Translations under genes and position numbers: made by a program
Source of the DNA: Patescibacteria group bacterium
GTDB lineage: Bacteria > Patescibacteriota > Saccharimonadia > Saccharimonadales > UBA4665
Reading direction: 5' to 3'
Length of the DNA: 60,616 nt
NCBI GenBank assembly: GCA_030272735.1
Contig: JARXKL010000006.1
Location: forward strand, 1-60,616
Shown: one piece after another, positions 1-18,851 of the stretch
Layout: every line of letters starts with the position of its first letter
How positions within the stretch are numbered: position 1 is the first letter of the stretch
Notes under the pieces: model-generated
Told to the model about the DNA's origin: nothing
Database searches by the model: none
The model's input: the letters and a program-made list of their open reading frames with translations, nothing else

Positions 1-317
1 GTTATCGCAATGGCGAGTCCAAGCAGTGCGTTAACTATGGTGCCACGAGCTCGAGCAGTTTTCTCTGACTCGCCTTGGCTCACAATGTACGAAATTCCTC
101 CATATATAACGAATCCAACTGCGACTATCGCAGATAGTTTGAGCATTATTTCAATTATTGCAGCAACGATAAGCCAAACATCATTAAGACCGTGCAACTG
201 CGGTCCGCATAAACCGTTAACTACTTTACCGTCTAAATATTTATACCAATGAGGGAATCCCAAAAAACTACCGCCAGGGCAGGGAGCGGCGAACTGAGTA
301 ATAAGCTGAGTAATCAT
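1..317 (-). CDS. pilin-like (TrbC/VirB2-type) membrane protein, partial
   Basis: The frame opens at the ATG at 317-315 on the minus strand and is still open at the window edge, giving at least 105 residues. The start overlaps the stop of the upstream gene in an ATGA (4-nt) junction, which suggests translational coupling. A short N-terminal part with Cys residues (PCPGG, LCGPQ) is followed by a hydrophobic segment (LIVAAIIEIMLK...), a glycine-rich turn (YGGISYIVSQGES) and a basic helix leading into a second hydrophobic stretch. This two-helix arrangement with a polar loop is the one seen in TrbC/VirB2 pilin-like proteins, and the upstream gene has the same plan. Its role as a surface or pilus subunit of the type IV secretion-like system encoded divergently is inferred. 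Confidence 0.6.
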   Translation of the reverse strand, partial: MITQLITQFAAPCPGGSFLGFPHWYKYLDGKVVNGLCGPQLHGLNDVWLIVAAIIEIMLKLSAIVAVGFVIYGGISYIVSQGESEKTARARGTIVNALLGLAIAI

Positions 318-1087
318 TGGCCTAAGAATCCTGCTGGAATTATGTAGTTTAAGAATGCGTAACCGAATATATAAATTACAAGTGCAATGACTGTGCTTTG
401 AATCCTCTTTGTGGCAATGGCCACTGACTGCGGCTCATCTCGTGAGCCGGCGTACTGTATACCGCCCATAATAAGTGAACCCACGATGACTAAGCCGACA
501 CCGTTAGACAGGAAACGAATGATTGCAAACGCCGCGTCAGTTATAGGATTGCCTTTACCCTTACAGCCTATTGATAGGCTTAGATTAACGGGGTTTTTGT
601 CAGAAGCGCCACACACATCGGCGTGCGACGGCTCATAGCCTTTGGTCACGCTAGTATCTTCGGCTGGCAGATTACCGAAGTCGCCTTTAGCAGGTTTAGT
701 AAGACTATGGCCAGTTGCCTTCAGTACTTTTTGTAACTTTTGGTTGAAATCATTTTCGTTCTTTGGTTGTGGACTGCTGTTAACTGTTTCATCGATGAAT
801 TCGATAGCTTTGTTGGTTAGGCAGCCTGCCTTACTATCCTTAGTATTATTATTGCAGTAGTAAGTAGCGACATTCTTAGTTGTTTTAACGGTGTCTTCGT
901 TACGACAACCGGCTTTAAGTGATGGACCCTCTACTATTTTTAAGCAGTGGGCAAGTACAGGGTCAGTTACCGGGGCCTCGGCATGTACAGTTTTCGTCGT
1001 CCCGATTATCAAAAACAGGAAACAGGCGGTTAGGCCGGTGAGTGTTGCTTTTGTTATGAGTGTTTTGGTTGTGTGTAAACGTGCCAT
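314..1087 (-). CDS. pilin-like (TrbC/VirB2-type) secreted membrane protein
   Basis: 257 aa. A signal peptide or membrane anchor lies at about residues 12-36 (hydrophobic, ending VHAEA). A Cys-containing extracellular region follows with at least six cysteines. Two C-terminal hydrophobic helices (about 185-205 and 230-250) are separated by the polar loop GSRDEPQSVAIATKR. The helix-loop-helix end matches the TrbC/VirB2 pilin-like pattern and resembles the downstream partial gene, so the two are probably paralogues in one operon. It is divergent from the VirB6-like gene at 1190. The long Cys-rich N-terminal domain is unusual for a classical pilin and resembles the Cys motifs of the neighbouring VirB6-like protein. 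Pilus subunit is the best guess; an accessory membrane subunit is possible. Confidence 0.65.
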   Translation of the reverse strand: MARLHTTKTLITKATLTGLTACFLFLIIGTTKTVHAEAPVTDPVLAHCLKIVEGPSLKAGCRNEDTVKTTKNVATYYCNNNTKDSKAGCLTNKAIEFIDETVNSSPQPKNENDFNQKLQKVLKATGHSLTKPAKGDFGNLPAEDTSVTKGYEPSHADVCGASDKNPVNLSLSIGCKGKGNPITDAAFAIIRFLSNGVGLVIVGSLIMGGIQYAGSRDEPQSVAIATKRIQSTVIALVIYIFGYAFLNYIIPAGFLGQ

Positions 1088-1113
1088 AAATAATGTTTTG
1101 AGTGATTAGCTAT

Positions 1114-1142
1114 AGTATGCACTATATGGCCATGGCATACAA
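1114..1142 (-). promoter_or_regulatory. candidate promoter of the pilin-like operon
   Basis: On the minus strand TTGTAT (1142-1137) and CATACT (1119-1114) are separated by 17 nt, about 25 nt before the ATG at 1087. The same stretch carries nested inverted repeats (TATAGT/ACTATA and GTATGC/GCATAC), so a regulator may bind here between the divergent genes. Prediction from sequence only. Confidence 0.4.
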
Positions 1143-1189
1143 ACGCATATCCGTGTAAAGCATGAGCAGCTTGGCTTTCTTGTGGTATC

Positions 1190-3985
1190 ATGAAGACAAA
1201 AGACAGTGAAAAAATGAAGTTATTGCAAAAATATTTTGATTTTATTCGACGACCCCATCCAGCAGGAATATGGGCGCTGTTAGTCATAATTACACTACCC
1301 TTAGTCCTTGGGCTTGTTGCCCCCCTCACCAGTTCGCATGCTTCAGCTGCAGATCCTGGCGTGTTAGCCTGCCAAAAACTTGTGGTGGCTGGCACTGATA
1401 CTGACCCTAGGAAAGTGCCGACTAATCTCCCAATGTACAAAGACTGTAAAACGGGCTACGATGCCGGCTACAATAACCCGAACCAAAATGAACCAGATAG
1501 TCCCGTAGGTCCTTGTAACGATACAATGACGAATAAGGGAATGTGCGAGAATGGCTTCAGACAAGGGAATACAGACAAAAAATCCACTACCAATCAGCCG
1601 AGCAGTGACACTATCGGGAAAGATGGTGCAGCTAAATGTAAGCCTTATCTGAGCGAAAAAGGACTTAGCAAAGATGTTCAGAAATCAAATTATGATGCAT
1701 GCATAACGGGATATAATGGTCAGTTTGCTGGAAAAAATACTGAGGATGCATGCAAATCAGTCCCTGGAGCATACAAAAGCGCATGTTTGGCTGGTCATGA
1801 TGCTGCTATAAACCATAATATAGTGAAACCAGGAGAGGGTGGCCAAGGTGGAGAAACAGGAGCAACACCTGCCAAGACTGATGGGTCTAATAGCGACACA
1901 TCGCCAGACTGTGAATCAGGTGGATTCAATCTCTCATGGATCCTTTGTCCTATTATCAATGGCTTGGCGAGCGCTGTAGACGACATATATAGCAAAATGG
2001 TGCAGCCACTTTTAGTCACTCAGCCAATCGAGCTGCAAAATACTGATAAAGATCCTTCTCATGTCTATGAAATATGGTCAAACTTTAGAATTTACGGAGA
2101 CATTCTATTGATAATAGTGCTGCTTGTAGTGGTCTTTGGCCAATCGATCGGCGGAGGAGTAATTGATGCATATTCAGCTAAAAAAATATTACCGCGTCTA
2201 TTAGCGGCAGCAGTACTCATTAACATTTCCATCTACCTTGTGGCACTAGCAGTTGACCTAACAAACGTCCTCGGAAACGGAATCATAAACCTTATAGAGC
2301 AACCCTTCAAAGATGCTGGTGGGTTTACGCTCAAGCTAAGTGGCGGTGCCGCAGATCTTGGTATGGCTGCTTTAGTAACTGGTGGTATTTTTGGCGCCCT
2401 AACAATAGTGCCTTTATTAGAATTTGTTTTTCTATTTTTCTTAATTCCAGCTTTTTTGACTATGCTAGCCATCCTCGTAACGGTAATGGTTCGGCGAGGT
2501 CTTATCATATTCTTGGTGATGGTTGCGCCAATAGCATTTGCTTTATATTGCTTGCCGAATACTGAACAATACTTCAAAAAATGGTGGGATCTTTTACTCA
2601 AAACTTTGATGGTTTATCCTATCATCGCTGCAATATTTGGCATAGCTAATGTGCTGTCAATTACTATCAATACGACTACAAGCGGCATAAGCCAGTCTGT
2701 AGCTGGTTTAGTCTCTATCATCGCCTTATTTGTGCCGCTGTTTTTAATTCCGTTTAGTTTCAAATTTGCAGGCGGAGTGCTCGGTAAGTTAACGGATGTT
2801 GCACAAGGCATGGGCAAGAAGGCCCATGAAGGTATGAAGGGCAATCCCAACGACGAGAACAGCTGGCAAAGAAAGGCTTCACGAAATCTCAACGCTCAGC
2901 GTGCTAGCAAGAACCTTACTGGTGCTGCACTAGTAAAATCCGTAAGGCCGCAGGATTTCAGTCGAGGTGGTTCAAAGCTGCGCAAAGCAAGGCTTTCTAG
3001 TGTACGCGACGCATATGCAGGTTTTTACGGTAAGCAGGGGATGGCAGCACAGTCTTATGAGCATTTCAAAGAAGACAGTAATGTCATGCAGGACCTTGCA
3101 AGATTCGGCACTGGAGCTGAATCTCGGGCTGCCATAGAGGCTAAATATGATGGTGGAAGGAATAAGGACTTCACTGCTGCAGATAGAGAGCAGGCCTTGT
3201 TCTCTTCTGCAGCTGCTGACCGCATAGGCCGCACCAATTTCATGAGGCGCCAAGCGCTCGTGAATCCAGCGACCGTGGCATACGGAATAGCACCTGGCGA
3301 AGAAGGCTGGAACGAAGCTATGGCCATAAGCCGTGAACTTTCCGGTGGCGAGAAATATGACACTACACAGCCTGCACCCGACGCCTCTGCGCCTCGATAT
3401 GACCCGAAGAGTCCTGCATACCAGCCAGCGCTAACTGGTGATGCAGGAGTCTTCCGGGGACTACAGAACACCTATCAGTATGTTGGCAAGGCAGCTGCGG
3501 GCAGGCACGATCAGTCTGGGGCGACAGATGGCAATATTTACAATGGCTACCGCGCTGCAAGTTCAGTTGGGTTGTACCAAAAATTCAATGGCAAACCATC
3601 TGGAATTACTGGCGAAGGCAAGTACTTTAGGGGCTTGTGGGACCGCGCCAAAGATCCTGCCACAGTAAACCAGCAAGATATACATAATTTTACCTCCAAA
3701 GAAGAGCGCGATGTATTTGATCACCATGATTTACGTATTGCCACAGTTGACAGAGCAAAACAAGCAGTTGCTGTTAACGCTCGAGAAATGGCTAGAGGCG
3801 GGTCAAGTGGAACCGGTGCTGCGTTTGATGAGGGAATGCGGCAGTCACAATTACATATCGAACATGCTGGGAATGCAAGTGATCCTAACAACGAATTGCG
3901 AAGGCTTATGGAAACACCTGAAGTAGTACGCATGACCAGAAGCTATGATCCCGAAGATGCGGAAAGACAACGCAGAGCCCCATAA
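1190..3985 (+). CDS. VirB6/TrbL-like polytopic membrane protein of the T4SS-like system
   Basis: 931 aa. A signal or anchor segment at about residues 25-50 (LLVIITLPLVLGLV) is followed by an extracellular region of about 200 residues with repeated Cys motifs (CKTGYD, CENGFR, CITGYN, CLAGHD). Residues about 300-540 hold five to seven hydrophobic helices of the kind seen in VirB6/TrbL channel subunits. The C-terminal 380 residues are hydrophilic, rich in Ala, Gly and Arg, and probably cytoplasmic. An in-frame ATG at 1214 (MKLLQKYF) is an alternative start; neither has a clear Shine-Dalgarno. The stop overlaps the PrgI start by 1 nt (TAATG). The assignment rests on topology and on the PrgI and VirB4 genes immediately downstream; the primary sequence alone would not prove it. 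Confidence 0.7.
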   Translation: MKTKDSEKMKLLQKYFDFIRRPHPAGIWALLVIITLPLVLGLVAPLTSSHASAADPGVLACQKLVVAGTDTDPRKVPTNLPMYKDCKTGYDAGYNNPNQNEPDSPVGPCNDTMTNKGMCENGFRQGNTDKKSTTNQPSSDTIGKDGAAKCKPYLSEKGLSKDVQKSNYDACITGYNGQFAGKNTEDACKSVPGAYKSACLAGHDAAINHNIVKPGEGGQGGETGATPAKTDGSNSDTSPDCESGGFNLSWILCPIINGLASAVDDIYSKMVQPLLVTQPIELQNTDKDPSHVYEIWSNFRIYGDILLIIVLLVVVFGQSIGGGVIDAYSAKKILPRLLAAAVLINISIYLVALAVDLTNVLGNGIINLIEQPFKDAGGFTLKLSGGAADLGMAALVTGGIFGALTIVPLLEFVFLFFLIPAFLTMLAILVTVMVRRGLIIFLVMVAPIAFALYCLPNTEQYFKKWWDLLLKTLMVYPIIAAIFGIANVLSITINTTTSGISQSVAGLVSIIALFVPLFLIPFSFKFAGGVLGKLTDVAQGMGKKAHEGMKGNPNDENSWQRKASRNLNAQRASKNLTGAALVKSVRPQDFSRGGSKLRKARLSSVRDAYAGFYGKQGMAAQSYEHFKEDSNVMQDLARFGTGAESRAAIEAKYDGGRNKDFTAADREQALFSSAAADRIGRTNFMRRQALVNPATVAYGIAPGEEGWNEAMAISRELSGGEKYDTTQPAPDASAPRYDPKSPAYQPALTGDAGVFRGLQNTYQYVGKAAAGRHDQSGATDGNIYNGYRAASSVGLYQKFNGKPSGITGEGKYFRGLWDRAKDPATVNQQDIHNFTSKEERDVFDHHDLRIATVDRAKQAVAVNAREMARGGSSGTGAAFDEGMRQSQLHIEHAGNASDPNNELRRLMETPEVVRMTRSYDPEDAERQRRAP

Positions 3986-5055
3986 TGGCGTCATATAAAT
4001 TAATACAAGATATCGAGGCAGAGGATCACATTTTGGGTCCGCTTTCACTACGGCAATTTATATATGGGTTGTGTGCGGCTGCAAGTTTTTACTTATCGTT
4101 TTTGTTATATACCCAAGGCGTGCCATTTTTGATACTACTCAGTCTGCCCCCAGGGCTATTTTGTGCTTTTTTTGCCTTCCCGTTCGGTAAAGATCAGTCG
4201 ACGGAAGTATGGGCATTAGCTAAATTACGCTTTTGGTTTAAGCCTCGCAAACGAATCTGGGATCAAAGTGGCGTTAAGGAATTAGTTACGATTACGGCGC
4301 CAAAAAAAGTGGAGCGTATCTTGACCAACGGCCTCGACCAAGAACAGGTTCGGAGTCGTCTAAACGCACTGGCCAATACTATCGACAGTCGCGGATGGGC
4401 TATAAAAAATATAAACGTAAATGCGTATACCCAGCCAGATTTTGCCATAAACACTAACTCTGACAGGTTGCTTAATGCGTCAAGCTTTCCCCAAGATGTT
4501 GCTAGCATTAGCGTGCTCGCTTCAGACGACATAATGGACGCAACGAGCAACCCAATCGCACAGCAGTTTGACCAAATGATTAATCAGTCTGCTCAAGCGC
4601 ATCGACAAGATATTGTCGATCAAATGAGCAGCACTGCGCCAGCACAATCACAAGTTACACCAGCAGATTACTGGTTCATGAATCAAGCGCCTGGCGCGAC
4701 AGCAAATGCACCAACGTATCAGCCCCACATCGAACTTGCTGCAGCAAAAAACGCAACGCCAGAAGAAGAGGCAATCGCCGCGCATGCCCATGCCGAGAAT
4801 TTGTCTAAAGATGTTTACCATAGCCACTTACGGACTCTTCAGCCGACAGCACCAACGCCGGTGGTAAAACATGCCAGTACCGGCGTTGTTAGCGCAAAAG
4901 ACAAGCCTCATACCGCGGTGACACCACCCCCAGACCCTGCTATACTAGCATTAGCAAATAACAACGATTTGAACGTTTCGACAATCGCTCGAGAAGCCTC
5001 AAAAGTTAAAGGGGATGACCCCTCGGATAACGAAGTTGTTATATCGTTGCGCTAA
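3985..5055 (+). CDS. PrgI family membrane protein
   Basis: 356 aa. The N-terminus (IEAEDHILGPLSLRQFIYG) and the two closely spaced hydrophobic helices at about residues 28-70, followed by an aromatic and basic segment (LAKLRFWFKPRKRIW), are typical of the PrgI family. PrgI proteins sit between VirB6-like and VirB4-like genes in Gram-positive and Patescibacteria conjugation loci and probably act as inner-membrane scaffold (VirB3-like). The remaining 250 residues are hydrophilic, Ala/Gln/Pro-rich and low in complexity, much longer than in a minimal PrgI of about 110-150 aa. The start overlaps the upstream stop by 1 nt. Confidence 0.85.
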   Translation: MASYKLIQDIEAEDHILGPLSLRQFIYGLCAAASFYLSFLLYTQGVPFLILLSLPPGLFCAFFAFPFGKDQSTEVWALAKLRFWFKPRKRIWDQSGVKELVTITAPKKVERILTNGLDQEQVRSRLNALANTIDSRGWAIKNINVNAYTQPDFAINTNSDRLLNASSFPQDVASISVLASDDIMDATSNPIAQQFDQMINQSAQAHRQDIVDQMSSTAPAQSQVTPADYWFMNQAPGATANAPTYQPHIELAAAKNATPEEEAIAAHAHAENLSKDVYHSHLRTLQPTAPTPVVKHASTGVVSAKDKPHTAVTPPPDPAILALANNNDLNVSTIAREASKVKGDDPSDNEVVISLR

Positions 5056-5108
5056 GTACTTCGCGTTGAGCGAAAGAAAAAGCGGAAAATAAAGGTGGGC
5101 AGCATATA

Positions 5109-6125
5109 ATGAATCCTTCAGCACCAAATCAACCAAACCCTCCTGCCGGTGGGCAGACCGCTGCTAACCCAAACCCAGGCTATATCTCTCCGGCTGGCGG
5201 CGAGCCACAGCAAAATTTTAATGTTCTCCAAAATCCAGATGTGCCGCAGCCGCTGCCACCACAAGCCTATGTGCAGCCTCCAGCTTCAGGAGCTATGCCT
5301 CAACCGCTAGCGCCACCCGTGCCAGTCGGAGGCGTAATGCCCCAAAGACCAACTACTATTTCTGGGGAAATGAATGGGGCGCCGCCGAAACCTGCCACCA
5401 ATACGAATAGTACCCAAAACACTCTGCAAATTGCTGAGGTCCGTGACGGCATTGTCATAATGAACGACGGTTCATTTAGGTCGGTGATCATGGTAAAAAG
5501 CATAAACTTTGACCTCATGAGCCAGCAAGAACAAGAGGCAGTGGAATACAGCTACCAGGGCTTTTTGAATTCACTGTATTTTCCGATTCAAATCTTCACG
5601 CGCTCCCAAAAAGTTGACCTCGGGCCCTACATTGAAAAGCTTGATAAAATACGCACCGAACATGACAATATGCTCCTTGCCTTATTAATGGAGGATTACA
5701 TCGGCTACATGGATGCTCTCAGTGAACAAACAAACATTATGGACAAAAAGTTTTATGTCATTGTACCGTTCTTCCCAGTTATAGATGCGCAAAAGGCCTT
5801 AACCCAAAGCAAGACATTTATAAGTGGCATTAGCAGCATGTTTGTTAAAAAAGAGCAGCATGTAACCATAAATGAAGTAGATTTGGAAAACGCCAAAACC
5901 GAACTGCGCAATCGCGTACAGGCCGCTCTAAATGGTTTATTACAATGCGGAATCCAAGGTTTACCCTTAGACACGCAAGAGCTCATTGAGCTGTATTACG
6001 ACAGCTACAACCCTGATACAGCCACACGACAACAGCTCAAAAACTTTAACGAATTATCCGCCGACATAATAACCAAAGGTCAGGGAAGCGCACTGCAACC
6101 TCATCTACAAAGAGAGATGCAGTAG
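5109..6125 (+). CDS. VirB4/TraC N-terminal-domain-like protein
   Basis: 338 aa. The first 95 residues are a Pro/Gln/Ala-rich linker. From about residue 108 (VRDGIVIMNDGSFRSVIMV) to the end the protein looks like the N-terminal, non-ATPase domain of VirB4/TraC proteins: a small beta domain, then helices and a segment YPVI-like (FYVIVPFFPV). No Walker motifs are present; these are in the next gene, which starts 2 nt after this stop. The usual single VirB4 chain therefore appears divided between two genes. A good Shine-Dalgarno (AAGGTGG, 5092-5098) precedes the ATG. The protein probably pairs with the ATPase below at the cytoplasmic face of the secretion channel. Confidence 0.7.
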   Translation: MNPSAPNQPNPPAGGQTAANPNPGYISPAGGEPQQNFNVLQNPDVPQPLPPQAYVQPPASGAMPQPLAPPVPVGGVMPQRPTTISGEMNGAPPKPATNTNSTQNTLQIAEVRDGIVIMNDGSFRSVIMVKSINFDLMSQQEQEAVEYSYQGFLNSLYFPIQIFTRSQKVDLGPYIEKLDKIRTEHDNMLLALLMEDYIGYMDALSEQTNIMDKKFYVIVPFFPVIDAQKALTQSKTFISGISSMFVKKEQHVTINEVDLENAKTELRNRVQAALNGLLQCGIQGLPLDTQELIELYYDSYNPDTATRQQLKNFNELSADIITKGQGSALQPHLQREMQ

Positions 6126-6127
6126 TC

Positions 6128-8056
6128 ATGGCACTTGGAAGAAAGAAGCAGCAACCGCTTGACCCTGTAGCAATAGCGCAAGCCCAGAGAGCTCGCGAGG
6201 AGCAGGAAGTACAGGCCGCTTTCCAAAAAGGCGTGACTGCACTCCGTGACTTTATTGCGCCAAGTTCACTCGAGTTTAGCAGCACACACTTCCAGCTCGG
6301 CACACGCTACGCGCGCACTTATTACGTCTACGGTTATCCACGACAGCTCTACACCGGCTGGCTCAGCAGTATGGTAAACCTCGACGAAGTCATGGACATG
6401 AGCATGTATATTTACCCGGTCGAAAGCCAAGTGGTCTTAGAAAATCTTAAGAAAAAAGTTACGCAGCTCGAGGCAGGCATTCAAATTGATGGTGAGCATG
6501 GCCGCGTCAGAGACCCGGGCAAACAAGCGGCAATATTAGACGCCGAAGAAATGCGCGACAAATTGCAAGTAGGCGAAGAGCGTTTTTTCCGTTTTGGCCT
6601 GTACTTCACAATCTATGGTGGCAGCATGGAGGAACTGGAGTTTGTTAGCCATAAGGTCGAGTCTATGCTTGGCCAACAATTGGTATATAGCAAGCCGGCG
6701 ACTTCACAACAAGAACAAGGGCTCAATAGCAATGTACCTCAACTCGTAGATCAGCTACAAATCAGGCGCAATATGAGCACTGGTGCATTGAGCACGAGCT
6801 TTCCATTTACGAGTGCCGATCTTACCCAAGATAATGGTATTTTATATGGCATAAATATGCATAACTCGGGGCTCGTAATTTTTGACCGGTTCTCTCTGGA
6901 AAATGGTAATTCCGTGGTATTCGCTAAGTCTGGAGCAGGCAAGTCATTTACCGTGAAGCTTGAAGCGCTGAGAAGCATGATGTTTGGCACAGAAATATTT
7001 ATTATTGACCCAGAAAACGAGTACCAGCGCATGTGCGAGGCTGTTGGCGGTGCGTACGTACGCTTGAGCTTGAACTCGGCTACGCGCATAAACCCTTTTG
7101 ACCTGCCGAAAGTTATCGATGTTGAGGAATCTGACAATGCCTTGCGTACTAACCTCATCACTCTGCACGGACTACTTCGCTTAATGATGGGTGGGGCACA
7201 AGCACAGATGCAAGGTGGCGGTGGTGTTACTATGCCCGCATTAGCACCATCCGAAGAAGCTGACTTAGATGCGGCCCTTATCGGCACGTACGCAAAAGCC
7301 GGGATAACCAACGACCCGCTTACTCACACTTCACAACCTCCTACTATTAGCGATCTTTACGATACTTTATTACATATGGGTGGGACGGGTCCCCAGCTAG
7401 CGCAGCGGTTACGTAAATACACGAGTGGAACCTTCGCCGGCATATTCAGCCAACAAAGCAACATTAATATCGATAACCCGATGGTGGTATTTAACTTGCG
7501 CGATCTTGAAGATGAGTTGCGTCCGGTAGCAATGTACATTGTGCTTAATTATATTTGGAATAAAACTAAATCCGATATCAAAAAGCGCTTGTTAATTGTC
7601 GACGAAGCATGGCAGCTCATGAAATACGAAGACTCAGCTAACTTCTTATTCAGCCTCGCTAAACGGGCACGTAAATACAACCTTGGCATAACCACCATCA
7701 CTCAAGATGTGGAAGACTTTATGGGCTCTCGTATGGGTAGGGCAATTGTCGCGAATGCATCAATGCAGTTCTTGCTTAAGCAGTCTTCAAGTGCGGTAGA
7801 TGTGCTGAGCGATGTGTTCAAGCTAACGAGCGAAGAAAAGAAGCGTTTGAGCCAGTTCCCCGTAGGGCAAGGCCTGTTTTTTGCTGGCCAAAGTCATGTG
7901 CACATTCAGGTTATAGCCAGTCCCACCGAAACAGGACTTATAACGACAAACCCCAACCAAGTACAGCAAATTAATGCGGCTGAACAAGCCGGAGAATTTA
8001 GCCAACCCCAGGGAACTATTGACCTGAGCAACAGACTGTATCCCGGTAACGTTTAG
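6128..8056 (+). CDS. virB4: VirB4-like conjugative transfer ATPase
   Basis: 642 aa. Walker A is SGAGKS at residues 268-273 and Walker B is LLIVDEAW with D492-E493, both in the arrangement of VirB4/TraC ATPases. The motif FIIDPENEY after Walker A and the Gln-containing ITQDVEDFM segment after Walker B are also typical. The N-terminal 260 residues contain a second copy of a VirB4-like N-domain. VirB4 enzymes power pilus assembly and substrate passage in type IV secretion. The gene lies 2 nt after the separate N-domain-like gene and in the same operon as the VirB6-like and PrgI genes. No VirD4 coupling protein or relaxase is visible in the window, so transfer of DNA is not shown. Confidence 0.9.
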   Translation: MALGRKKQQPLDPVAIAQAQRAREEQEVQAAFQKGVTALRDFIAPSSLEFSSTHFQLGTRYARTYYVYGYPRQLYTGWLSSMVNLDEVMDMSMYIYPVESQVVLENLKKKVTQLEAGIQIDGEHGRVRDPGKQAAILDAEEMRDKLQVGEERFFRFGLYFTIYGGSMEELEFVSHKVESMLGQQLVYSKPATSQQEQGLNSNVPQLVDQLQIRRNMSTGALSTSFPFTSADLTQDNGILYGINMHNSGLVIFDRFSLENGNSVVFAKSGAGKSFTVKLEALRSMMFGTEIFIIDPENEYQRMCEAVGGAYVRLSLNSATRINPFDLPKVIDVEESDNALRTNLITLHGLLRLMMGGAQAQMQGGGGVTMPALAPSEEADLDAALIGTYAKAGITNDPLTHTSQPPTISDLYDTLLHMGGTGPQLAQRLRKYTSGTFAGIFSQQSNINIDNPMVVFNLRDLEDELRPVAMYIVLNYIWNKTKSDIKKRLLIVDEAWQLMKYEDSANFLFSLAKRARKYNLGITTITQDVEDFMGSRMGRAIVANASMQFLLKQSSSAVDVLSDVFKLTSEEKKRLSQFPVGQGLFFAGQSHVHIQVIASPTETGLITTNPNQVQQINAAEQAGEFSQPQGTIDLSNRLYPGNV

Positions 8057-8097
8057 GGGTATACTAGAGGGTGAAAGTGAGTTAGGAAAATACCCAA

Positions 8098-11052
8098 ATG
8101 GCGTTGCAAACACCTGGTTATGATACCGAGTCTGAAGACCAGGATTTCAGGCACCCCCTTGATGATGCAAGAGGCCACAAAGGAAGTCTAGCCGATGCAG
8201 AGCAGCGTGCAGCTGGTGACTCATCCGACCCACGTGGGCCTGACGACAAGCCCGCAGGCAAATCATCTGACCCTCGAGGCGATGTTGCCAACAAAGAAGG
8301 CTTATTTAATGCTGACGGCGACAAGAGTTTGGGTAAAGGCGGCTTATCGAGCGCTCCGTTAGCCGGTGCAGCTAGTATCATAAAGGGTGGTGGGGTTTTA
8401 GGTGCTGCACGTGGACTTTTCAGAGGCAGACGTCGAAAAGCGGCCGGCGGTGGAATAGTTGCGACTATTATTGGGGCTGTTATTTTTGCAGGTACAATAG
8501 CCTCTGGGCCCTTACAGCTTGAGCACTTATCAATGATATTGCAGACATTTGGCCACCAACACGAAAAAGACACAGCATCACGCACTAAAGGCCTGTACCG
8601 TTTTGCACGAACTGGCGATGTAAATGAGACTAGTGTTGGTTACTTTGGAAGTAGAAGCGCTAACAGGTCTATTAGCACACTAAAAGAGATGGGCATAGAT
8701 GTTAATACCCGGTCAACATTCGGTAGTATTAAATCTATAACCTATGATTCGGCAAAGCTGTCCAAAGCGTATCCGGAACTGAAAAATGCGAGCCTTGCAG
8801 AAACTAAAGCCTTTTTGTCAGAAAAGCTTGGAGTCCCAGTAAAGTCATTTGGCAATCTCGGAAGTGGAAGTGACGTTGGAGGGTATAAGGTGTCTATAAA
8901 CCGTTCTAATAACAGTTCGGCCGAGAATTATAGACTACTCAGAGAGCATGCGAAACTTATACCTAATGGGCGGGTAGCTAATGCCTTAAAACTGCCGCAG
9001 GACGGTAAGATCATGATGGCGATTAAAATGAGGCCGTTAGCAAAATTCTATGGCGTTCCCTCAATGTGGCACCCAATAAAAAAACAGACCGTAAAGATAA
9101 CCAATAAATTAGATATCAAGATCGATCGACGCAAAGCAGCAAAAGCCAGAGAAACTGCTCGCGCAAAATTACGAGCACCCGCTGAATCTTCGCGATATAT
9201 AGCAGCCAGAGAAAACATGAAAAGTAAGATTAATGGTATTCAAAGCAAAGTCGGTGGAGCATTACTGATAACAGGCGGCATGTGCGTCATTCGCAGCGTA
9301 GCCACCGATGTACCAGAGGTGAACAGGGGGGCTATAGTGGTTCCTTCTGTGCTTGAAGCTGCTGATAAAACAGCTGTAGGCTCTCAAAATATGTCCAATA
9401 AGGACATTGCTATGGAAGACGACGCAGCAATAGTTGAAACATTTACAGACGATAAGGGGGCCTCTATTTGGCAGTCACGTGCGCTACAGGCAATTTCCAA
9501 CCCAACTTATGCGGGCGGGCAAGATATAGATACAAAATACAAACAAGCGTTTTTGAAAGACACAACAGCAGAAAATATAAAATCTACTTTTGGTGGTGGA
9601 AGCTTCGGAGCTGCAGCCTGTAGCCCGCTCGGCAGTGTTGTACAGCTAGCTGGCGGGCTTATCTTGATTTTGGGGGCAGTGCCAACTGACGGAGGGAGCT
9701 TGGCAGCATTTGCAGCAGCGAAAGGCGCTTCAGTGGCAGCCTCTGCGGGAGCTATCTACTTCTTAGAAAAAGGTGCAGTTGACTACTTTAAAACTAACAA
9801 AGCTGTACCAGAAATATTCGCAGGCCCCGAAGGCGGCAACCTACTAGCTTATGGCGCTAAAGAAGCTGCCAATATTAGTAGTCGGTCTGACGGTGGAACT
9901 GCTCGGAACAATACTCAAACTGCTGCGCTAGAAAAACAGGCACAATTTGCAAGCCAAAAACAGTTTCGGACTAAAAGCTTATTTGCGCAGATTTTTGACG
10001 TACATGATTATCGAACACCGGCAGCTAAATTCACCGACCGCTTAACGAGCAACCCGGCCAAAAACATAGCCATGATGACAAATAGTTTCCTAGGCGCGCT
10101 GCCTTCATTGATTCCACACGCTATCTCAACACTCATACCCACATCTCATGCGGCAATTGAGAAAAAGCCATACGATTGGGGATTCCCCGATTACGGTCTT
10201 CCTTCCGACTTACTAAAAGATAAGAATTATGAGGACCCTTACGACAACGCCGATAAAGTCGCTGCAGTACTGAATGACACAGCTAACCCGGATTATGCTT
10301 CCGGCCTGAAAGATAGGGCCAGTAAATGTTTTGGTGTAAAAATAGATAATCCAGACGGCCGTTGGGGCGCCGTATCAGAAAGTGAAACCAACCCTAATGG
10401 TGAGGATTATCTGAGCGCTCACTGCGATGATACAAGCGACCCCAACTGGAAGCGGATGATGCTGTTTGTCTTTGACACACGAACTATGTCATCAATAGCT
10501 TGTTATGAAGGCGAGGAATCAGCCTGCGCCGACTTTGGTATCGGGGGAGCGGCCAACTCCGAAACGGCTACCGGTAGTGCTGCGTCAACTGATGACGGCA
10601 ACTGTAATGGTGGCAAGAGTCTCGGCGCGCAAGATGCATATGTAGCCGGGCAGAAATCCTCCGTAAAGATTTGTGCAATGCCTGCGGCAAATGGAACTAC
10701 TATAGATGTTGCGTCTGAAATAAGTAGCAATGTAAAAGACCTTCTTGCAGCAGCAAAGAAAGACAATATTGAATTCGGTGGCTCGGGCTTTAGGTCTATG
10801 TCTGGTCAAGAAAGCGCGTACGCAGCTTACCAAGCAGGTACCGGTGCTGAAGCTGCAAAGCCTGGATACTCCAATCACCAGAGCGGCCTAGCTATTGACT
10901 TCAGTCTAGGTGGGCAAACGCTCTGCTATAGAAATCCAGCGTCTGCATGCTTCGGCAACAAGGGGTTTGATTGGCTTAAAAATAATGCGTCAAAGTATGG
11001 ACTGAAGAATTACCCTAATGAAGCCTGGCACTGGTCAACAACGGGTAATTAA
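8098..11052 (+). CDS. large membrane protein with C-terminal VanY-type (M15) peptidase domain
   Basis: 984 aa. The N-terminal 110 residues are hydrophilic and acidic, then a membrane segment follows at about 117-137. Further hydrophobic stretches occur near 384-400 and 510-560. The C-terminal 100 residues match D-alanyl-D-alanine carboxypeptidase/VanY M15 enzymes: SGFRS near residue 895, SNHQSGLAIDF near 924 (His and Asp zinc ligands) and EAWHW near 974 (third zinc ligand). This predicts trimming of peptidoglycan stem peptides outside the cell. The gene follows virB4 by 41 nt with a Shine-Dalgarno TTAGGA. Its place suggests local wall opening for the secretion apparatus. The 700-residue middle part is unrecognised. 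Confidence 0.8.
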   Translation: MALQTPGYDTESEDQDFRHPLDDARGHKGSLADAEQRAAGDSSDPRGPDDKPAGKSSDPRGDVANKEGLFNADGDKSLGKGGLSSAPLAGAASIIKGGGVLGAARGLFRGRRRKAAGGGIVATIIGAVIFAGTIASGPLQLEHLSMILQTFGHQHEKDTASRTKGLYRFARTGDVNETSVGYFGSRSANRSISTLKEMGIDVNTRSTFGSIKSITYDSAKLSKAYPELKNASLAETKAFLSEKLGVPVKSFGNLGSGSDVGGYKVSINRSNNSSAENYRLLREHAKLIPNGRVANALKLPQDGKIMMAIKMRPLAKFYGVPSMWHPIKKQTVKITNKLDIKIDRRKAAKARETARAKLRAPAESSRYIAARENMKSKINGIQSKVGGALLITGGMCVIRSVATDVPEVNRGAIVVPSVLEAADKTAVGSQNMSNKDIAMEDDAAIVETFTDDKGASIWQSRALQAISNPTYAGGQDIDTKYKQAFLKDTTAENIKSTFGGGSFGAAACSPLGSVVQLAGGLILILGAVPTDGGSLAAFAAAKGASVAASAGAIYFLEKGAVDYFKTNKAVPEIFAGPEGGNLLAYGAKEAANISSRSDGGTARNNTQTAALEKQAQFASQKQFRTKSLFAQIFDVHDYRTPAAKFTDRLTSNPAKNIAMMTNSFLGALPSLIPHAISTLIPTSHAAIEKKPYDWGFPDYGLPSDLLKDKNYEDPYDNADKVAAVLNDTANPDYASGLKDRASKCFGVKIDNPDGRWGAVSESETNPNGEDYLSAHCDDTSDPNWKRMMLFVFDTRTMSSIACYEGEESACADFGIGGAANSETATGSAASTDDGNCNGGKSLGAQDAYVAGQKSSVKICAMPAANGTTIDVASEISSNVKDLLAAAKKDNIEFGGSGFRSMSGQESAYAAYQAGTGAEAAKPGYSNHQSGLAIDFSLGGQTLCYRNPASACFGNKGFDWLKNNASKYGLKNYPNEAWHWSTTGN

Positions 11053-11054
11053 TA

Positions 11055-12998
11055 ATGTCTCTGACGATTTTTTCCTGCATATCTAAAAAGTTTATGTCAA
11101 AAGCAGTTTGTGTTATTCTCTTGTTTTCTTGTATAGTTTCAGTTTCTTCCGTTACCGTATTGGCTTTGAGTGGTGAGCAAAAACTCATTTTTGACCAGGG
11201 CATCAACTATTTCGACGCCGAATCTTGTGGAGCATTCGCTACTTCGACGGGTGCTGCTACGCATACTGATGCAGAGGGGAGCGCCGATGCCAAAGCTAAT
11301 GCGCTGGTAATTTATACTTTTCTAACATCTCACGGTTTAACAAAACCCCAAGCAGGAGGCATTTTAGCCAATTTATACTATGAGTCGGCTGGCCTAAATC
11401 CAAAAAAGGTACAGAATGGGGGTGATGCTGAGGAAATCACAGTAGACAATTTTACGGGGTACGGATTGGCCCAATGGACTTCTCGAAACCGGCAACAAGG
11501 GCTTAAAGACTTGGCTGCTAGTAGAAATAAAAAATCATCGAACCTAGGATTACAGATAGATTACTTATGGAAGGAGCTTACTGGAGGGTATAAACAAGCG
11601 TTATCTAATTTAAAGAAAACTACGGACTATAGTTCCGCGATTTATGTAATTATTAATCAGTTTGAAGCCCCACAAGATCGAAATCAAGTACAGTCTCGAG
11701 GTGATGCGTTTAAGTCTATATATGATTCATTGCCCGAAGCAGCAAGTGCCGCTGACTCATCTGCGTCAAGTGCCTCGGGTGATACTAGTGGTGTACAAAA
11801 TTGCATGTGTCCGGCTCCTTCGGCCGATCCAGCAGGCTCTAACGGGAAAACAGTAGCTATTGATCCGGGGCACGGTCCGAGTGCAGTCACGGTAGATTCG
11901 AAAACAGGACTTAAACAGGTTGAGACAAATAATCAACCTGAGGGTAAAAATGTATGGGATGTAGCTCAATTAGTAAAGAAAAGCCTGGAGGCCGACGGAT
12001 ATAAGGTTGTAATGTTGAAACAAACAGAAGATGAAAGTGTGACTTTTAGGCAACGTGCAGAGCGTGCAGATCAGGCCAATGCGGACATTGCGTTAAGTAT
12101 TCATACCGACTCTACCTTAGGAAATGACGGTCAAATATATCCTCAAAAAGTAGGACTTTATAGAGGCTCTGGTGCGAATAAGACCACATTTACCGACGCA
12201 AAAACAGCAGAAACAAGTCAAAAATATTCAGACATATTTAAGTCTGAACGACAAAAAACAGAAGGTTCCGACATTGTCGTTAAGTACAATGATTTCAATG
12301 GCAGGCAAGGCTACGAGCCTGGCGATATACAAATGGTTCAGTTATTTTCGAAAACACCGTGGATATACAATGAGGCCAAAAGTTCTGATGTTGCTAAGTA
12401 TGCTAAAGGCCTAATAAGCGGGGTTGAGAAATCTTTAGGGCAGTCGGGTGATACACTCAGCACGCAAGCTGACGCCACCACCTGCGCCAATGGCGGCGTC
12501 AGTAGCGGCAATGGGTCTATCGACGATATTTATGCCACAGCGCTGAAGTACGCTTGGTCTGATTACACAAACCCTAATCCTACCCCAAAGCCAAGCTACA
12601 AGTTCGCTTACGATTCAGGTAAGCGCAAAGGCGATTATCCTGGGGGCGGATATACTGATTGTGGAGCTTTTATAACGAGACTCATGATAGATAGCGGTGC
12701 TGACCCCAATTATAATAGCAAAAAACTAGCTACGTCTGGCCAGATTACACAGCTTAATACAGACAGTAAATACGAGAAAATTGGTAATGTTACAAATGTA
12801 GGCCAGCTGAAACCTGGCGACATAGCTGTCAGTGACAGCCACACCTATATGTATGTTGGTAAGCACGCTGGTTTGAAGAGCCAGTATGACTCAGTTTCGG
12901 CTTCTTTAGCTGTTAGTTCACCTGGACGAACGCCAATGGCAAGCAACTCTTATGATTTGGGTAGCTGGCATTGGTATAGATTGAAGAGTATAAATTAA
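11055..12998 (+). CDS. three-domain secreted peptidoglycan hydrolase (lysozyme-like, amidase_3, CHAP/NlpC-like)
   Basis: 647 aa. A signal peptide covers about residues 1-38; an in-frame ATG at 11094 is an alternative start. Residues about 80-225 resemble the phage-tail lysozyme domain (AGGILANLYYESAGLNP, GYGLAQWTSRNR) with a likely catalytic Glu in YYESAG. Residues about 265-457 are an N-acetylmuramoyl-L-alanine amidase_3 domain (AIDPGHG, NQPEGKN, LSIHTDS supply the zinc ligands). Residues about 490-647 are a CHAP/NlpC-P60-like cysteine peptidase with C536 (TDCGAF) and H596 (SDSHTYMYVG). One chain could thus cut the glycan strand, the muramoyl-alanine amide and the stem peptide. It sits 2 nt after the VanY-type gene, in the same operon. 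Confidence 0.85.
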   Translation: MSLTIFSCISKKFMSKAVCVILLFSCIVSVSSVTVLALSGEQKLIFDQGINYFDAESCGAFATSTGAATHTDAEGSADAKANALVIYTFLTSHGLTKPQAGGILANLYYESAGLNPKKVQNGGDAEEITVDNFTGYGLAQWTSRNRQQGLKDLAASRNKKSSNLGLQIDYLWKELTGGYKQALSNLKKTTDYSSAIYVIINQFEAPQDRNQVQSRGDAFKSIYDSLPEAASAADSSASSASGDTSGVQNCMCPAPSADPAGSNGKTVAIDPGHGPSAVTVDSKTGLKQVETNNQPEGKNVWDVAQLVKKSLEADGYKVVMLKQTEDESVTFRQRAERADQANADIALSIHTDSTLGNDGQIYPQKVGLYRGSGANKTTFTDAKTAETSQKYSDIFKSERQKTEGSDIVVKYNDFNGRQGYEPGDIQMVQLFSKTPWIYNEAKSSDVAKYAKGLISGVEKSLGQSGDTLSTQADATTCANGGVSSGNGSIDDIYATALKYAWSDYTNPNPTPKPSYKFAYDSGKRKGDYPGGGYTDCGAFITRLMIDSGADPNYNSKKLATSGQITQLNTDSKYEKIGNVTNVGQLKPGDIAVSDSHTYMYVGKHAGLKSQYDSVSASLAVSSPGRTPMASNSYDLGSWHWYRLKSIN

Positions 12999-13010
12999 TA
13001 TGGAACGATT

Positions 13011-13682
13011 ATGATGAATTTATGGACATTCAATAAGAAAATACTACTGCTTGTTTTAATATTATTTGTCTTGCCTCTACTAATTGTTGCTTTCTCATCG
13101 TTATCGAAGATTGGAAAAGTTGGAATAACAGTAAACGTTGCGCCGAGTACTGCCAAGCTTTATGTTGATGCCCGTAAAGTTTCTCCTGGCGATGTATATG
13201 TTCGTTCAGGTCATCACCGACTCGAGGCTAAACTTGATGGGTTTAACGCTTACTCAAAGGAGTTTGATACAGATAATTCGCCTAAAAAGGTGGTTTACGA
13301 TGTATTGCTCAGCCCTAAAAATACTTACGGACAGTCTATTCTTGACGACAATCCCAAATTACAACAGGAGCGAGAAAACATGGGCGGTGCAAAATTCAGT
13401 CAGAATAGCCAAGCGCTGAATGTTAAGTATCCTTTTTTGAAAGATCTACCTCTTGAGGGGCAACGGTTCACGGTAAATTATGGCGATGCTGTTGAGAGTA
13501 AAATAAAGGACGGTGATGTTGCAATAGCACTGTATGTAAGCGTCACTGATCCATCCGAAAAGCGTAATGCAATAAGGAGTATTACCGAGCAACTTGGGGT
13601 AGAACCAAGCGACATTGAAATCATTTTTACAGACTACTTTAATCCTATTACGGTGAAGGGTAATAATGAATCATCGAACTAA
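13011..13682 (+). CDS. membrane-anchored protein with PEGA-like domain
   Basis: 223 aa. An N-terminal anchor lies at about residues 11-32 (LLLVLILFVLPLLIVAF). Residues about 40-85 resemble a PEGA domain (VNVAPSTAKLYVDARKVSPGDVYV, then the GHHRLEAKLDGF turn), a small beta domain of surface proteins. The C-terminal half is mixed alpha/beta and unrecognised. ATG ATG gives two adjacent start choices (13011 and 13014). The gene follows the hydrolase by 12 nt and overlaps the next gene by 17 nt, so it is probably expressed with the secretion and hydrolase operon. Function unknown; a wall-facing accessory subunit is possible. Confidence 0.65.
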   Translation: MMNLWTFNKKILLLVLILFVLPLLIVAFSSLSKIGKVGITVNVAPSTAKLYVDARKVSPGDVYVRSGHHRLEAKLDGFNAYSKEFDTDNSPKKVVYDVLLSPKNTYGQSILDDNPKLQQERENMGGAKFSQNSQALNVKYPFLKDLPLEGQRFTVNYGDAVESKIKDGDVAIALYVSVTDPSEKRNAIRSITEQLGVEPSDIEIIFTDYFNPITVKGNNESSN

Positions 13683-14328
13683 CAAGCGAGCCCTAATTAC
13701 TATAGTTACCTTAGCGCTGATATTTGTCATCGGTTTATCTTTTATTGCGTACAGATCTTCTCAGACCAAGCTATCCATACAGCCTAGTGTTCCTTCGGAT
13801 ATAGCCCTATACAAACCTACTGTTGACGAAAATGCTGATTTGAGCAAAGAGAAACCTGTGTATGTGTCGGTAATGGGGATTTTTGATACAAGGGTAAGTC
13901 CCGGCACATATACCTATGTCGTTGCGCCAAGAAATAAAACTTATGAAACCCAAATATCACCATTAGACGTTACGGGTAAATCAATGAAATTAAAAGTAAC
14001 ACTCGTTTTGAAACAGAATCGATTGGCAGAACTTTCTAGCTTACAGCGGCCACTAATTGAGCAAAAACTCAGGGAAACTTATGCCAGTACGCTAAAAAAT
14101 TTTACTGTTGCTGATGTTAAGGCTTTTGGAGATGGCTCGTGGTACGGAGTTCGGTTAAATCCACTTGCAGGAGAAGTAGATACTTACATAAGCATAGTGC
14201 GCATCACTGGGAAAAATAATGTCGAAATAGCTGCACCACCATCGCTTACTTTAGCGGCTCCAATATACCCTAGCATTCCGAAAGAAGTCATTATAGGTAC
14301 AAATTTAATGATTAAAGATTTGTATTAA
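13666..14328 (+). CDS. membrane-anchored hypothetical protein
   Basis: 220 aa. A single N-terminal membrane helix (about residues 8-27, ALITIVTLALIFVIGLSFIAY) is followed by an extracellular domain with a pattern similar to the previous gene: a beta-rich part (VSPGTYTYVVAPRNKTY) and then a helical part with YASTLKNFTVADVKAFG. It may be a diverged paralogue of that gene. It starts inside the end of the previous gene and ends 3 nt before the convergent recF, with no terminator between. I do not recognise a family. Confidence 0.6.
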   Translation: MNHRTNKRALITIVTLALIFVIGLSFIAYRSSQTKLSIQPSVPSDIALYKPTVDENADLSKEKPVYVSVMGIFDTRVSPGTYTYVVAPRNKTYETQISPLDVTGKSMKLKVTLVLKQNRLAELSSLQRPLIEQKLRETYASTLKNFTVADVKAFGDGSWYGVRLNPLAGEVDTYISIVRITGKNNVEIAAPPSLTLAAPIYPSIPKEVIIGTNLMIKDLY

Positions 14329-14331
14329 TTG

Positions 14332-15390
14332 CTAGTCGCCACTCAGGGCGATGACGGTGCAGTTTTCGGCAAAGTGTTGGACTACGACGTCGGCGTCGGT
14401 GGTAGTTATGAAGGTTTGATAGGCAGCTAGGTAGTCAGTGAGGGCATGGCGGCGTTTACCGTCGAGCTCTGAAAAAACGTCGTCTAAAAGTAGCAGTGGG
14501 GTGACACCGCGAGCAGCTTCAAGCACGCGTAGTTCAATTATTTTTAGCGCCAATACGGCGGTGCGGGTTTCACCGCGCGAGGCGCTTGCGGAAGTCGAAT
14601 GTCCCTCAAATAATAACTCCATATCTTCGCGGTGTGGGCCACTTGCGGTAAAGCCGCGCAACCGGTCAAGCTCAATACTGGCTTCTAGTTTTTTGAGCAA
14701 ACTGGTTTCGTAGGTTGCGACCGATAGGGGTGTGCTGTAGCTAACCGTCACTTTCGTCGCTGTTTTTGATAGCGCGATATAAAGTTCACTGAGCTCTTCA
14801 GCAATTCTATTCAATAATAGGCAACGGGCTTTTACAATTTGTCCAGCTAACTGACTCAGCCTAACATTCCACGGAAATAACTGTGAATCGCTGGCGCCGT
14901 GTTGTTTTAGTAAGGCATTTCGCTGTGCCAAGGCGCGCTTGTATTGTCGGCGAATCGCACCATAACCGGGCGTAGTTTGCTCGAGCAAGTCATCGAGATA
15001 GTTGCGGCGCCGCTCAGGGCCACCGGACAGTAGCTGCAAATCGTTTGGCTCAAACAAAACGACTGGTAGGCTGGTTTGTAAACTGAGCCGCTTATACTGC
15101 CGCTCGTTGATCTCGTAGGTCTTGGTAGGTTTTGGTTCAGTAACAAGCTTGATAGTCCGCAAGCCGCCTTCAGAATTGTGTGCATCGAGCCGTGCCCAGG
15201 GCGCATCAAAACTGATCAAATCCTGATCGCTGACACGATATGATCCGCCGCGCGCCAGTACCAAGAGTGCTTCAAGGAGATTTGTTTTGCCACTAGCATT
15301 CGGGCCAACCACTATATTTACACCTGGACCAAACTCAAACGATGCATCCTCGTATGAGCGGAAGTTCTGCAGACGCAAGTCGGTTATCAT
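14332..15390 (-). CDS. recF: RecF, DNA replication/repair ATPase
   Basis: 352 aa, normal length for RecF. It opens with MITDLRLQNFRSYEDA and Walker A GPNASGKTN at about residues 29-37. The C-terminal part has the ABC-like LLLDDVFSELD Walker B/D-loop. RecF loads RecA at gapped DNA with RecO and RecR. On the minus strand TACAAT (15402-15397) ends 6 nt before the ATG, and no Shine-Dalgarno is present, so the mRNA may be leaderless. In most bacteria recF follows dnaN directly; here a toxin-antitoxin pair on the opposite strand lies between them. Confidence 0.95.
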   Translation of the reverse strand: MITDLRLQNFRSYEDASFEFGPGVNIVVGPNASGKTNLLEALLVLARGGSYRVSDQDLISFDAPWARLDAHNSEGGLRTIKLVTEPKPTKTYEINERQYKRLSLQTSLPVVLFEPNDLQLLSGGPERRRNYLDDLLEQTTPGYGAIRRQYKRALAQRNALLKQHGASDSQLFPWNVRLSQLAGQIVKARCLLLNRIAEELSELYIALSKTATKVTVSYSTPLSVATYETSLLKKLEASIELDRLRGFTASGPHREDMELLFEGHSTSASASRGETRTAVLALKIIELRVLEAARGVTPLLLLDDVFSELDGKRRHALTDYLAAYQTFITTTDADVVVQHFAENCTVIALSGD

Positions 15391-15413
15391 CTGACAATTG
15401 TACCTGTTTTAGA

Positions 15414-15452
15414 TTGACAAACATAATAGTGTGTATTACAATGTGTATTATG
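15414..15452 (+). promoter_or_regulatory. promoter/operator of the toxin-antitoxin pair
   Basis: A perfect -35 TTGACA (15414-15419), a 17-nt spacer and a -10 TACAAT (15437-15442) predict transcription starting at or next to the ATG at 15450. The inverted repeat CATAATA (15422-15428) / TATTATG (15446-15452) and the direct repeat GTGTATTA (15431, 15443) overlap the promoter, as expected for an operator bound by an autoregulating antitoxin. Confidence 0.7.
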
Positions 15453-15689
15453 AGTAGCATAAGAATGAACATCACCTTACCCAGAGAACTTGGTCTCAAA
15501 GTAAAGGCCTCTAAGAATAGTAGCGCGCTGATAGCAGAGTCGCTACAAGAAAAGTTTGACCGTCAAGATAAAGAGTCGCTGAATAAAAAGCTCGAGATAG
15601 CCTATGCAGATGCCGCCATGTCGAATGAAGACCAGGGACTCTGGGACACAACTATAGGAGACGGTTTGAATAGTAAAGGAACTAGTTAG
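15450..15689 (+). CDS. antitoxin (MazE-like, ribbon-helix-helix type)
   Basis: 79 aa. The short N-terminal strand RMNITLPRELGLKVK followed by a helical region is the pattern of ribbon-helix-helix DNA-binding antitoxins (type II, MazE/EndoAI group). The C-terminal half is charged and probably wraps the toxin. I chose ATG 15450 over the upstream in-frame ATG at 15441 because the -10 box TACAAT overlaps that one and the transcript should begin at about 15449-15450. The gene ends 1 nt before the MazF/PemK toxin. It should neutralise the toxin and repress its own promoter. Confidence 0.8.
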   Translation: MSSIRMNITLPRELGLKVKASKNSSALIAESLQEKFDRQDKESLNKKLEIAYADAAMSNEDQGLWDTTIGDGLNSKGTS

Positions 15690-15690
15690 C

Positions 15691-16050
15691 GTGAGTGCTG
15701 TAGGGTCAAATATTCTGCGCGGGCATATTTACTGGGTCACCTTCGACCCCACAGTTGGTTCTGAGATCCGTAAAACAAGACCAGCATTGGTGATATCCAA
15801 CAATGTAGCAAATAGGTATGCAAGCACCGTGACGGTTATTCCACTTACCTCCAACACTAGTCAAGTAAGGCCGTTTGAAGTTCTGATAACTGCGCCAAGT
15901 GGAGGTCTTGATAAAGATAGTAAGGCCAAAGCCGATCAAATTCGAACCGTCGACAAGCAGCGACTCAGCACCGAGCCACTTGGCGGCCCTGTTAGTAACG
16001 AAATACTCGTAAATCTAACAGAAGCGCTAAAAATCCACCTCGATATCTAG
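15691..16050 (+). CDS. mazF: MazF/PemK family toxin (endoribonuclease)
   Basis: 119 aa. The start is GTG at 15691, with AAAGGA (15675-15680) as Shine-Dalgarno inside the end of the antitoxin gene. The sequence RGHIYWVTFDPTVGSEIRK, then RPALVIS and TVTVIPLTSN, is the conserved MazF/PemK core; the Arg and Thr/Ser residues in these blocks form the active site in the family. MazF enzymes cut single-stranded mRNA at short sites and stop growth. The last 4 nt overlap the convergent dnaN stop. The pair occupies the slot between recF and dnaN. Confidence 0.92.
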   Translation: MSAVGSNILRGHIYWVTFDPTVGSEIRKTRPALVISNNVANRYASTVTVIPLTSNTSQVRPFEVLITAPSGGLDKDSKAKADQIRTVDKQRLSTEPLGGPVSNEILVNLTEALKIHLDI

Positions 16051-18801: not shown

Positions 18802-18822
18802 TACCGCTCCTTGTGTATCACT

Positions 18823-18851
18823 AATATACCTGAGAGAGACACAGTTTTCCA
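18823..18851 (-). promoter_or_regulatory. dnaA promoter overlapping a DnaA box
   Basis: On the minus strand TGGAAA (18851-18846), a 17-nt spacer and TATATT (18828-18823) lie just upstream of the Shine-Dalgarno and ATG of dnaA. The -35 hexamer lies inside the DnaA-box-like site 18845-18853, which would let DnaA repress its own gene. Confidence 0.55.

Follow-up and report, generated by a model that had tools for sequence, protein, structure and literature searches.

The role of the essential type IV secretion system (T4SS) of epibiotic bacteria has been called completely unknown (PMC11665869). A T4SS locus occupies positions 1-14328 of the stretch of DNA analyzed here (the window), which is an entire contig of 60,616 nucleotides from a Saccharimonadia (Patescibacteria) genome of 840,746 bases in 24 contigs (92.8% complete). 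Two predicted wall hydrolases are encoded directly behind its motor, and the question is what they do there. New here is that the first of them belongs to a family with one conserved body, on which the predicted C-terminal enzyme has repeatedly been replaced by unrelated enzymes while the motor stayed nearly constant. That the motor is fixed while the wall enzyme can be exchanged offers a direct handle on the role of this machine. The features are listed below by position and strand; the positions behind VirB4 are called slots 1 to 3.

3-317, minus strand: VirB2-like pilin at position 5 of the usual six-gene array, incomplete at the contig end (PF18895 T4SS_pilin, E = 1.6e-4; pilin profile of relatives, E = 7e-12)
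314-1087, minus strand: VirB2-like pilin at position 6, with a signal peptide (PF18895, E = 5.7e-5; 26.6 bits in a genome search; relatives in 53 loci by phmmer)
1190-3985, plus strand: VirB6-like polytopic membrane protein of 931 amino acids with about seven hydrophobic spans (TrbL/VirB6 match in 5 of 25 orthologues)
3985-5055, plus strand: PrgI/VirB3-like membrane protein (PF12666 PrgI, E = 2.9e-9, above cut-off)
5109-6125, plus strand: TrsD-like protein of 338 amino acids, the N-terminal part of a split VirB4, without an ATPase (NCBIfam TrsD, E = 9.5e-7; aligns only to the N-terminal part of VirB4 models)
6128-8056, plus strand: VirB4 ATPase of 642 amino acids (TraG P-loop, E = 2e-27; NCBIfam CD1110-family VirB4; solved VirB4 4ag5, E = 1.7e-46; Walker A and B read directly)
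8098-11052, plus strand: slot 1, 984 amino acids, a membrane-anchored body (residues ~100-805, conserved in relatives) with a C-terminal LAS/VanY peptidase (871-979; VanY, E = 1.8e-13; AlphaFold2 fold)
11055-12998, plus strand: slot 2, a secreted protein of 647 amino acids with lysozyme (82-225), Amidase_3 (267-410, active site to E440) and NlpC/P60-like (~533-620) domains, from domain matches and active-site residues
13011-13682, plus strand: slot 3a, single-span protein with a PEGA-like domain (E = 0.03) and a conserved small C-terminal domain; the family recurs at this position
13666-14328, plus strand: slot 3b, single-span protein with a transthyretin/CNA-B-like sandwich and a helix and four-strand domain (AlphaFold2 predicted local distance difference test score [pLDDT] 91; VIA Z up to 8.5 for residues 32-116)
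14332-18852, minus strand: recF, dnaN and dnaA (Pfam; same neighbours in relatives), which are context outside the machine

The slot-1 protein of the window has a body of about 700 residues with conserved cysteines, an evident N-terminal membrane span and, around residues 510-528, at least a second. Its tail retains the motifs SxHxxGxAxD (925-934) and ExxH (975-978), and in the AlphaFold2 model (mean pLDDT 72.7 over the whole protein) the C-terminal fold is that of VanYB/LdcB (VIA Z 11.9). In sequence and fold comparisons with solved structures, only this VanY end matches; helical matches of the body at Z below 6 were not trusted. The possibility that the body is a second VirB6 was rejected, as the two share no profile similarity.

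To follow slot 1 through relatives, we used 80 loci picked by VirB4 similarity and 15 more from other families. The body is present in all slot-1 proteins of these relatives, and slot 1 directly follows VirB4 in nearly all loci. The tails differ in kind. Among 61 complete slot-1 proteins, about 28 end in a LAS/M15-M74-like domain (27 with the metal-site motif), 12 in an M23 or M23-like domain, 3 in M14, 2 in Amidase_2 and 1 in a GDSL domain, and 3 have tails that are not classifiable. Some M23 tails are preceded by a GDSL, beta-lactamase-fold or endonuclease/exonuclease/phosphatase (EEP) domain. One or two EEP domains stand before M23 in five proteins (L130, L131, L133, L083 and L084), with tails of up to 825 residues, and their N, E, NTH, GDFN and SDH motifs are largely in place. 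Because unrelated folds sit on one body, these differences reflect exchange of the tail, not divergence.

Exchange pays little regard to the ancestry of the motor. On a VirB4 tree of 58 loci, tail class changes at least 22 times, against a possible minimum of 6 and a mean of 27.5 in shuffled data (a value as low occurs in 1 of 200 shuffles), although many branches are weakly supported and the number of changes is approximate. Tail classes are thus slightly clustered on the tree and mostly free. The nearest VirB4 neighbor shares the tail class in 21 of 58 cases (16.8 when shuffled, P = 0.16), and the class differs in 60 of 81 pairs whose VirB4 proteins are at least 88% identical. One close relative of the window (L040; VirB4 92% and body 43% identical) carries Amidase_2 in place of VanY. 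In another locus (L078), slot 1 has no tail and VanY is part of the slot-2 protein, which shows that the peptide cutter can move. The type of slot-1 enzyme is almost uncoupled from VirB4 relatedness.

The motor around which these enzymes change is nearly frozen across species, with VirB4 more conserved than DnaA. Median pairwise identities are 0.82 for VirB4, 0.67 for TrsD and for DnaA, 0.61 for DnaN and 0.48 for RecF, and among the far more variable parts 0.43 for PrgI, 0.26 for the pilin, 0.22 for VirB6 and 0.16 for the slot-1 body; choosing loci by VirB4 similarity favors a high VirB4 value, and the low medians depend on alignment quality. In an order-wide genome sample, VirB4 identity is still 66 to 90%, and the window VirB4 is 84 to 90% identical to that of other genomes of the order. 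VirB4 was detected in 107 of 118 genomes of the order. A phylum-wide sample of 145 genomes yielded the slot-1 body in 9, all of them in the same class.

Gene order is nearly fixed as well. Pilins, VirB6-PrgI-TrsD-VirB4, slots 1, 2 and 3, and recF-dnaN-dnaA follow one another in most of the 80 loci and the 15 others, and the slot-3 family occupies the same position in most loci. The array is not a chance arrangement, since dozens of independent contigs show the same order. A few loci depart from it, with VirB6 moved behind VirB4 or hydrolases elsewhere. In L088, L094-L096, L108, L110 and L113, VirB6 and slot 1 stand behind VirB4, ahead of PrgI, or the stretch from VirB4 to recF lacks them.

The machine itself is already known. 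The T4SS of Southlakia epibionticum ML1 (SEML1_0006-0019) was found essential for epibiotic growth by transposon sequencing, with pilins noted and no recognizable coupling protein or relaxase (PMC10633639), and a 2025 survey of 3,035 Patescibacteria genomes described TrsD, PrgI, VirB6, VirB2 arrays and a location near dnaA (PMC12102498). The locus of the window shares with these the VirB4, TrsD, PrgI, VirB6 and roughly six VirB2-like pilins, the peptidase and lysozyme genes after virB4, the site near dnaA, and the lack of a relaxase or coupling protein in the locus. As judged from its genes, it is a T4SS of Patescibacteria (Saccharimonadia), with a VirB4 assigned to that clade by identity, adjacent TrsD, PrgI and VirB6, and pilins; the original prediction independently rediscovered a published system. 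In S. epibionticum, the only species for which essentiality for epibiotic growth is known, the homologues of peptidase and lysozyme genes directly downstream of virB4 are essential too (PMC12102498; PMC10633639). We see no difference in kind between the two systems; the published texts consulted do not treat the slot-1 body as a single family whose C-terminal enzymes are exchanged. Nor did we find an exchangeable slot-1 tail described in the literature searched, which did not extend to most subscription papers or to any supplements.

The second hydrolase varies too. In slot 2 of the window, the lysozyme (Phage_lysozyme2, E = 9e-30) and Amidase_3 (E = 1e-14) are clear and the NlpC/P60 match is weak (E = 0.0086). 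Active-site residues are in place in all three (E110; H273, E290, H350 and E440; C536 and H596). The "three-activity hydrolase" of the original prediction therefore stands firmly for two activities; the third is weaker by score, but Cys536 and His596 are present and relatives have homologous domains. An amidase lacking its catalytic Glu was considered and dropped, as relatives align a conserved W-x-Y-N-E. Among 41 slot-2 relatives, 32 keep the lysozyme and the remainder of the protein varies (GDSL, C39_2, M23, glucosaminidase, GH3, SLT, CHAP or VanY). The nearest solved relative of the lysozyme is phi29 gp13 (E = 4e-26 with the family profile), and identity to staphylococcal phage tail lysins is 36 to 40%. 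Slot 2 and its relatives also have the make-up of VirB1-type proteins, a muramidase or SLT domain with CHAP or NlpC/P60 in a T4SS locus.

The best reading of these data, which we favor with moderate confidence, is a machine that depends on contact, crosses the envelope and has wall cutters that can be exchanged. Its membrane motor and channel would consist of VirB6, PrgI and the split VirB4 (TrsD plus ATPase), and its short pilus or tip of six VirB2-like pilins. Slot 1 would keep an enzyme that cleaves peptides beside the machine, on the outer side of the membrane, the secreted slot-2 enzyme would cut glycan strands, amide bonds and peptides, and the slot-3 proteins would be membrane-tethered extracellular accessories. 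By opening peptidoglycan locally, the cutters would let the machine cross the epibiont's own wall and, most likely, the host bacterium's wall where the two cells touch. This reading is backed by gene content, by the fixed order, by active-site residues that are intact, by the absence of the tested relaxases and by the repeated exchange of the slot-1 enzyme, as well as by the kinship of the slot-2 lysozyme to phage tail lysozymes, which cut walls from outside. Exchange of tails on a fixed body beside a near-constant motor suggests a substrate that changes between lineages, which would fit the host wall better than the cell's own. We infer that the parts assemble into a single machine, that its targets include the host wall and that enzyme exchange tracks host change. 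Should enzyme class prove to follow the host, it would give thousands of uncultured genomes a molecular marker of their host range.

A more specific version falls somewhat short of even confidence: slot 1 may be a universal, class-specific tip or collar on which the enzyme against the host envelope is changed as one changes a drill bit. The tail would then help to set which host walls can be breached, and EEP forms would also act on host nucleic acids or phosphate esters.

Several points weigh against a machine directed at host walls. The enzyme tail is absent from 12 of the 61 slot-1 proteins, and hydrolase domains are often shuffled anywhere. The fast divergence of the slot-1 body, VirB6 and pilins shows a general drift of outward parts. 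Gram-positive conjugation systems need VirB1-type hydrolases (PrgK, TraG) for wall crossing only, so opening of the own wall may explain the enzymes.

This last point leads to the strongest alternative, a possible one to which we give distinctly less than even weight: that the hydrolases are VirB1/PrgK equivalents opening only the own wall for machine assembly, and that their exchange is ordinary turnover of hydrolase domains and not host adaptation. MPF-FATA systems do carry modular VirB1 proteins with LytM, muramidase and CHAP domains (PMC12857230, PMC11323569), and slot 2 is a lysozyme with NlpC, CHAP or C39 in many relatives. The chemistry of the own wall should stay fairly constant, yet slot-1 class is nearly uncoupled from VirB4 relatedness; the GDSL, beta-lactamase-fold or EEP additions in some tails would be superfluous for simple wall crossing, and the slot-2 lysozyme is nearest to phage tail types.

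Less likely, in our judgment, is an import machine for macromolecules of the host (DNA or nucleotides), whose wall cutters, joined in some lineages by nuclease-fold tails, would free and trim the material. The lineage is unable to synthesize nucleotides and can do without comEC (PMC10633639, PMC11665869), uptake through the T4SS has been proposed (PMC12102498), and the five EEP-bearing proteins have intact motifs. EEP is, however, absent from the slot-1 protein of the window and from most relatives, and its substrate may be a phosphate ester and not DNA.

The hydrolases could also be housekeeping cell-division enzymes that merely lie beside the T4SS near the origin, where housekeeping genes are common and where short intergenic gaps are no proof of function. 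We regard this as improbable: slot 1 directly follows VirB4 in nearly all loci, its body was found only within the class, and a division enzyme would not be expected to change class so freely.

Conjugation is unlikely, and a conjugation system with relaxase and oriT elsewhere hardly credible: the VirB4, TrsD and PrgI are of the Gram-positive conjugation type and a VirD4-like ATPase lies on another contig, but none of the three relaxase families run (PF03432, PF01076 and PF08751; others were not searched) has a match anywhere in the ~93% complete genome, the locus is chromosomal and next to dnaA across the order, the slot-1 protein has no match among 72,556 plasmids, and published surveys take the same view. 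The original prediction, which had seen no relaxase or VirD4 and had preferred host contact to conjugation, is upheld on this choice by the relaxase and coupling-protein results, by the recF-dnaN-dnaA flank and by the work on relatives; the role in host contact and envelope crossing is the probable one argued above. Its statement on VirD4 holds near the locus, where none was found, and PF02534 has no match in the genome, but a 726-amino-acid VirD4/HerA-like ATPase is encoded on another contig (G000:C1:7431-9611, L039; PF12696 TraG-D_C, E = 1e-5). The published equivalent is not essential in S. epibionticum (PMC12102498). The L039 gene adjoins diacylglycerol-kinase-like and PAP2-like genes, far from the T4SS. 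As for VirB11, T2SSE matches all lie on other contigs and most are of pilus-ATPase size; VirB11 is in any case lacking from Gram-positive T4SSs (PMC12857230).

Comparison with known systems places the locus further. Like the MPF-FATA conjugation systems (pCF10, pIP501 and pGO1, with CD1110-family VirB4), it has VirB4, TrsD, PrgI and VirB6 types and a modular wall hydrolase; unlike them, it has VirB2 pilins, a chromosomal position near dnaA, a coupling protein outside the locus, no relaxase of the three families and no recognized VirB8. Slot 2 resembles the VirB1-type proteins PrgK, TraG and CwlT in joining a muramidase to CHAP or NlpC/P60 in the service of a Gram-positive T4SS, but its lysozyme is of phage tail type, Amidase_3 is inserted, and no counterpart of slot 1 was found with them. 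With the phage tail lysozymes (phi29 gp13 and staphylococcal phage tail lysins) it shares the lysozyme domain and, in relatives, the pairing of lysozyme and M23, here in a cellular secretion locus and not a virion. Polymorphic toxin systems (PMC3482391) likewise combine a conserved trafficking part with an exchangeable C-terminal enzyme; in contrast to them, most slot-1 tails are wall hydrolases, and slot 1 is followed by no immunity gene specific to the tail but, in most loci and whatever the tail class, by the slot-2 hydrolase.

The array had been described as near-gapless, with pilins, VirB6-like protein, PrgI, a VirB4 pair, a VanY-type peptidase and a multidomain hydrolase, and every named part is present. 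Gene junctions are overlaps or gaps of at most about 50 bases, except for a 102-base divergent gap (1088-1189): the two pilins lie on the minus strand, divergent from VirB6 through slot 3 on the plus strand. That description needs amending in this respect, in that the first pilin is incomplete, and by the two single-span proteins of slot 3, which it did not list. The VirB4 "pair" proved to be one ATPase plus a separate TrsD-like N-terminal part. The ATPase scores 349 bits against the NCBIfam CD1110 family (cut-off, 325 bits) and matches positions 179-733 of that model, while the 338-amino-acid protein matches positions 2-72 and also covers 99-233 of another VirB4 model. Such a split VirB4 has been published for the phylum (PMC12102498).

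Six pilin genes occur in 23 of 26 complete arrays of relatives. The missing pilins were sought elsewhere in this genome and none were found, so the array is simply interrupted by the contig end. The window VirB6 alone has no Pfam match, and its profile gave only chance matches against the PDB. In slot 3, VirB8 gave no sequence match, and a fold search gave an answer for the PEGA-like half only; the modeled helix and four-strand domain of slot 3b is possibly VirB8-like. Scans of the locus for promoters and terminators gave no excess over shuffled sequences.

The attribution to an episymbiotic lineage was borne out at class level, the relatives with VirB4 up to 93% identical being Candidatus Saccharibacteria or other bacterial metagenome-assembled genomes. 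About a dozen genomes of the order (e.g., G090:C11, G047:C2, G102:C1 and G096:C1) encode a second VirB4 that is only 36 to 39% identical, perhaps belonging to a second T4SS.

One flank of the locus is recF-dnaN-dnaA, with no mobile element, and the other lies past the contig end. Next to the T4SS locus, recF and dnaN are separated by a gene for a PemK/MazF-like toxin (15342-16050, plus strand; E = 1.7e-30) and by a short gene upstream of it that likely encodes the antitoxin. Farther along the window (27689-29908, plus strand), within a polysaccharide/rhamnose gene cluster, a secreted protein of 739 amino acids carries repeated ricin-type beta-trefoil lectin domains (E = 4e-116) after an N-terminal domain and is a candidate host-surface adhesin.

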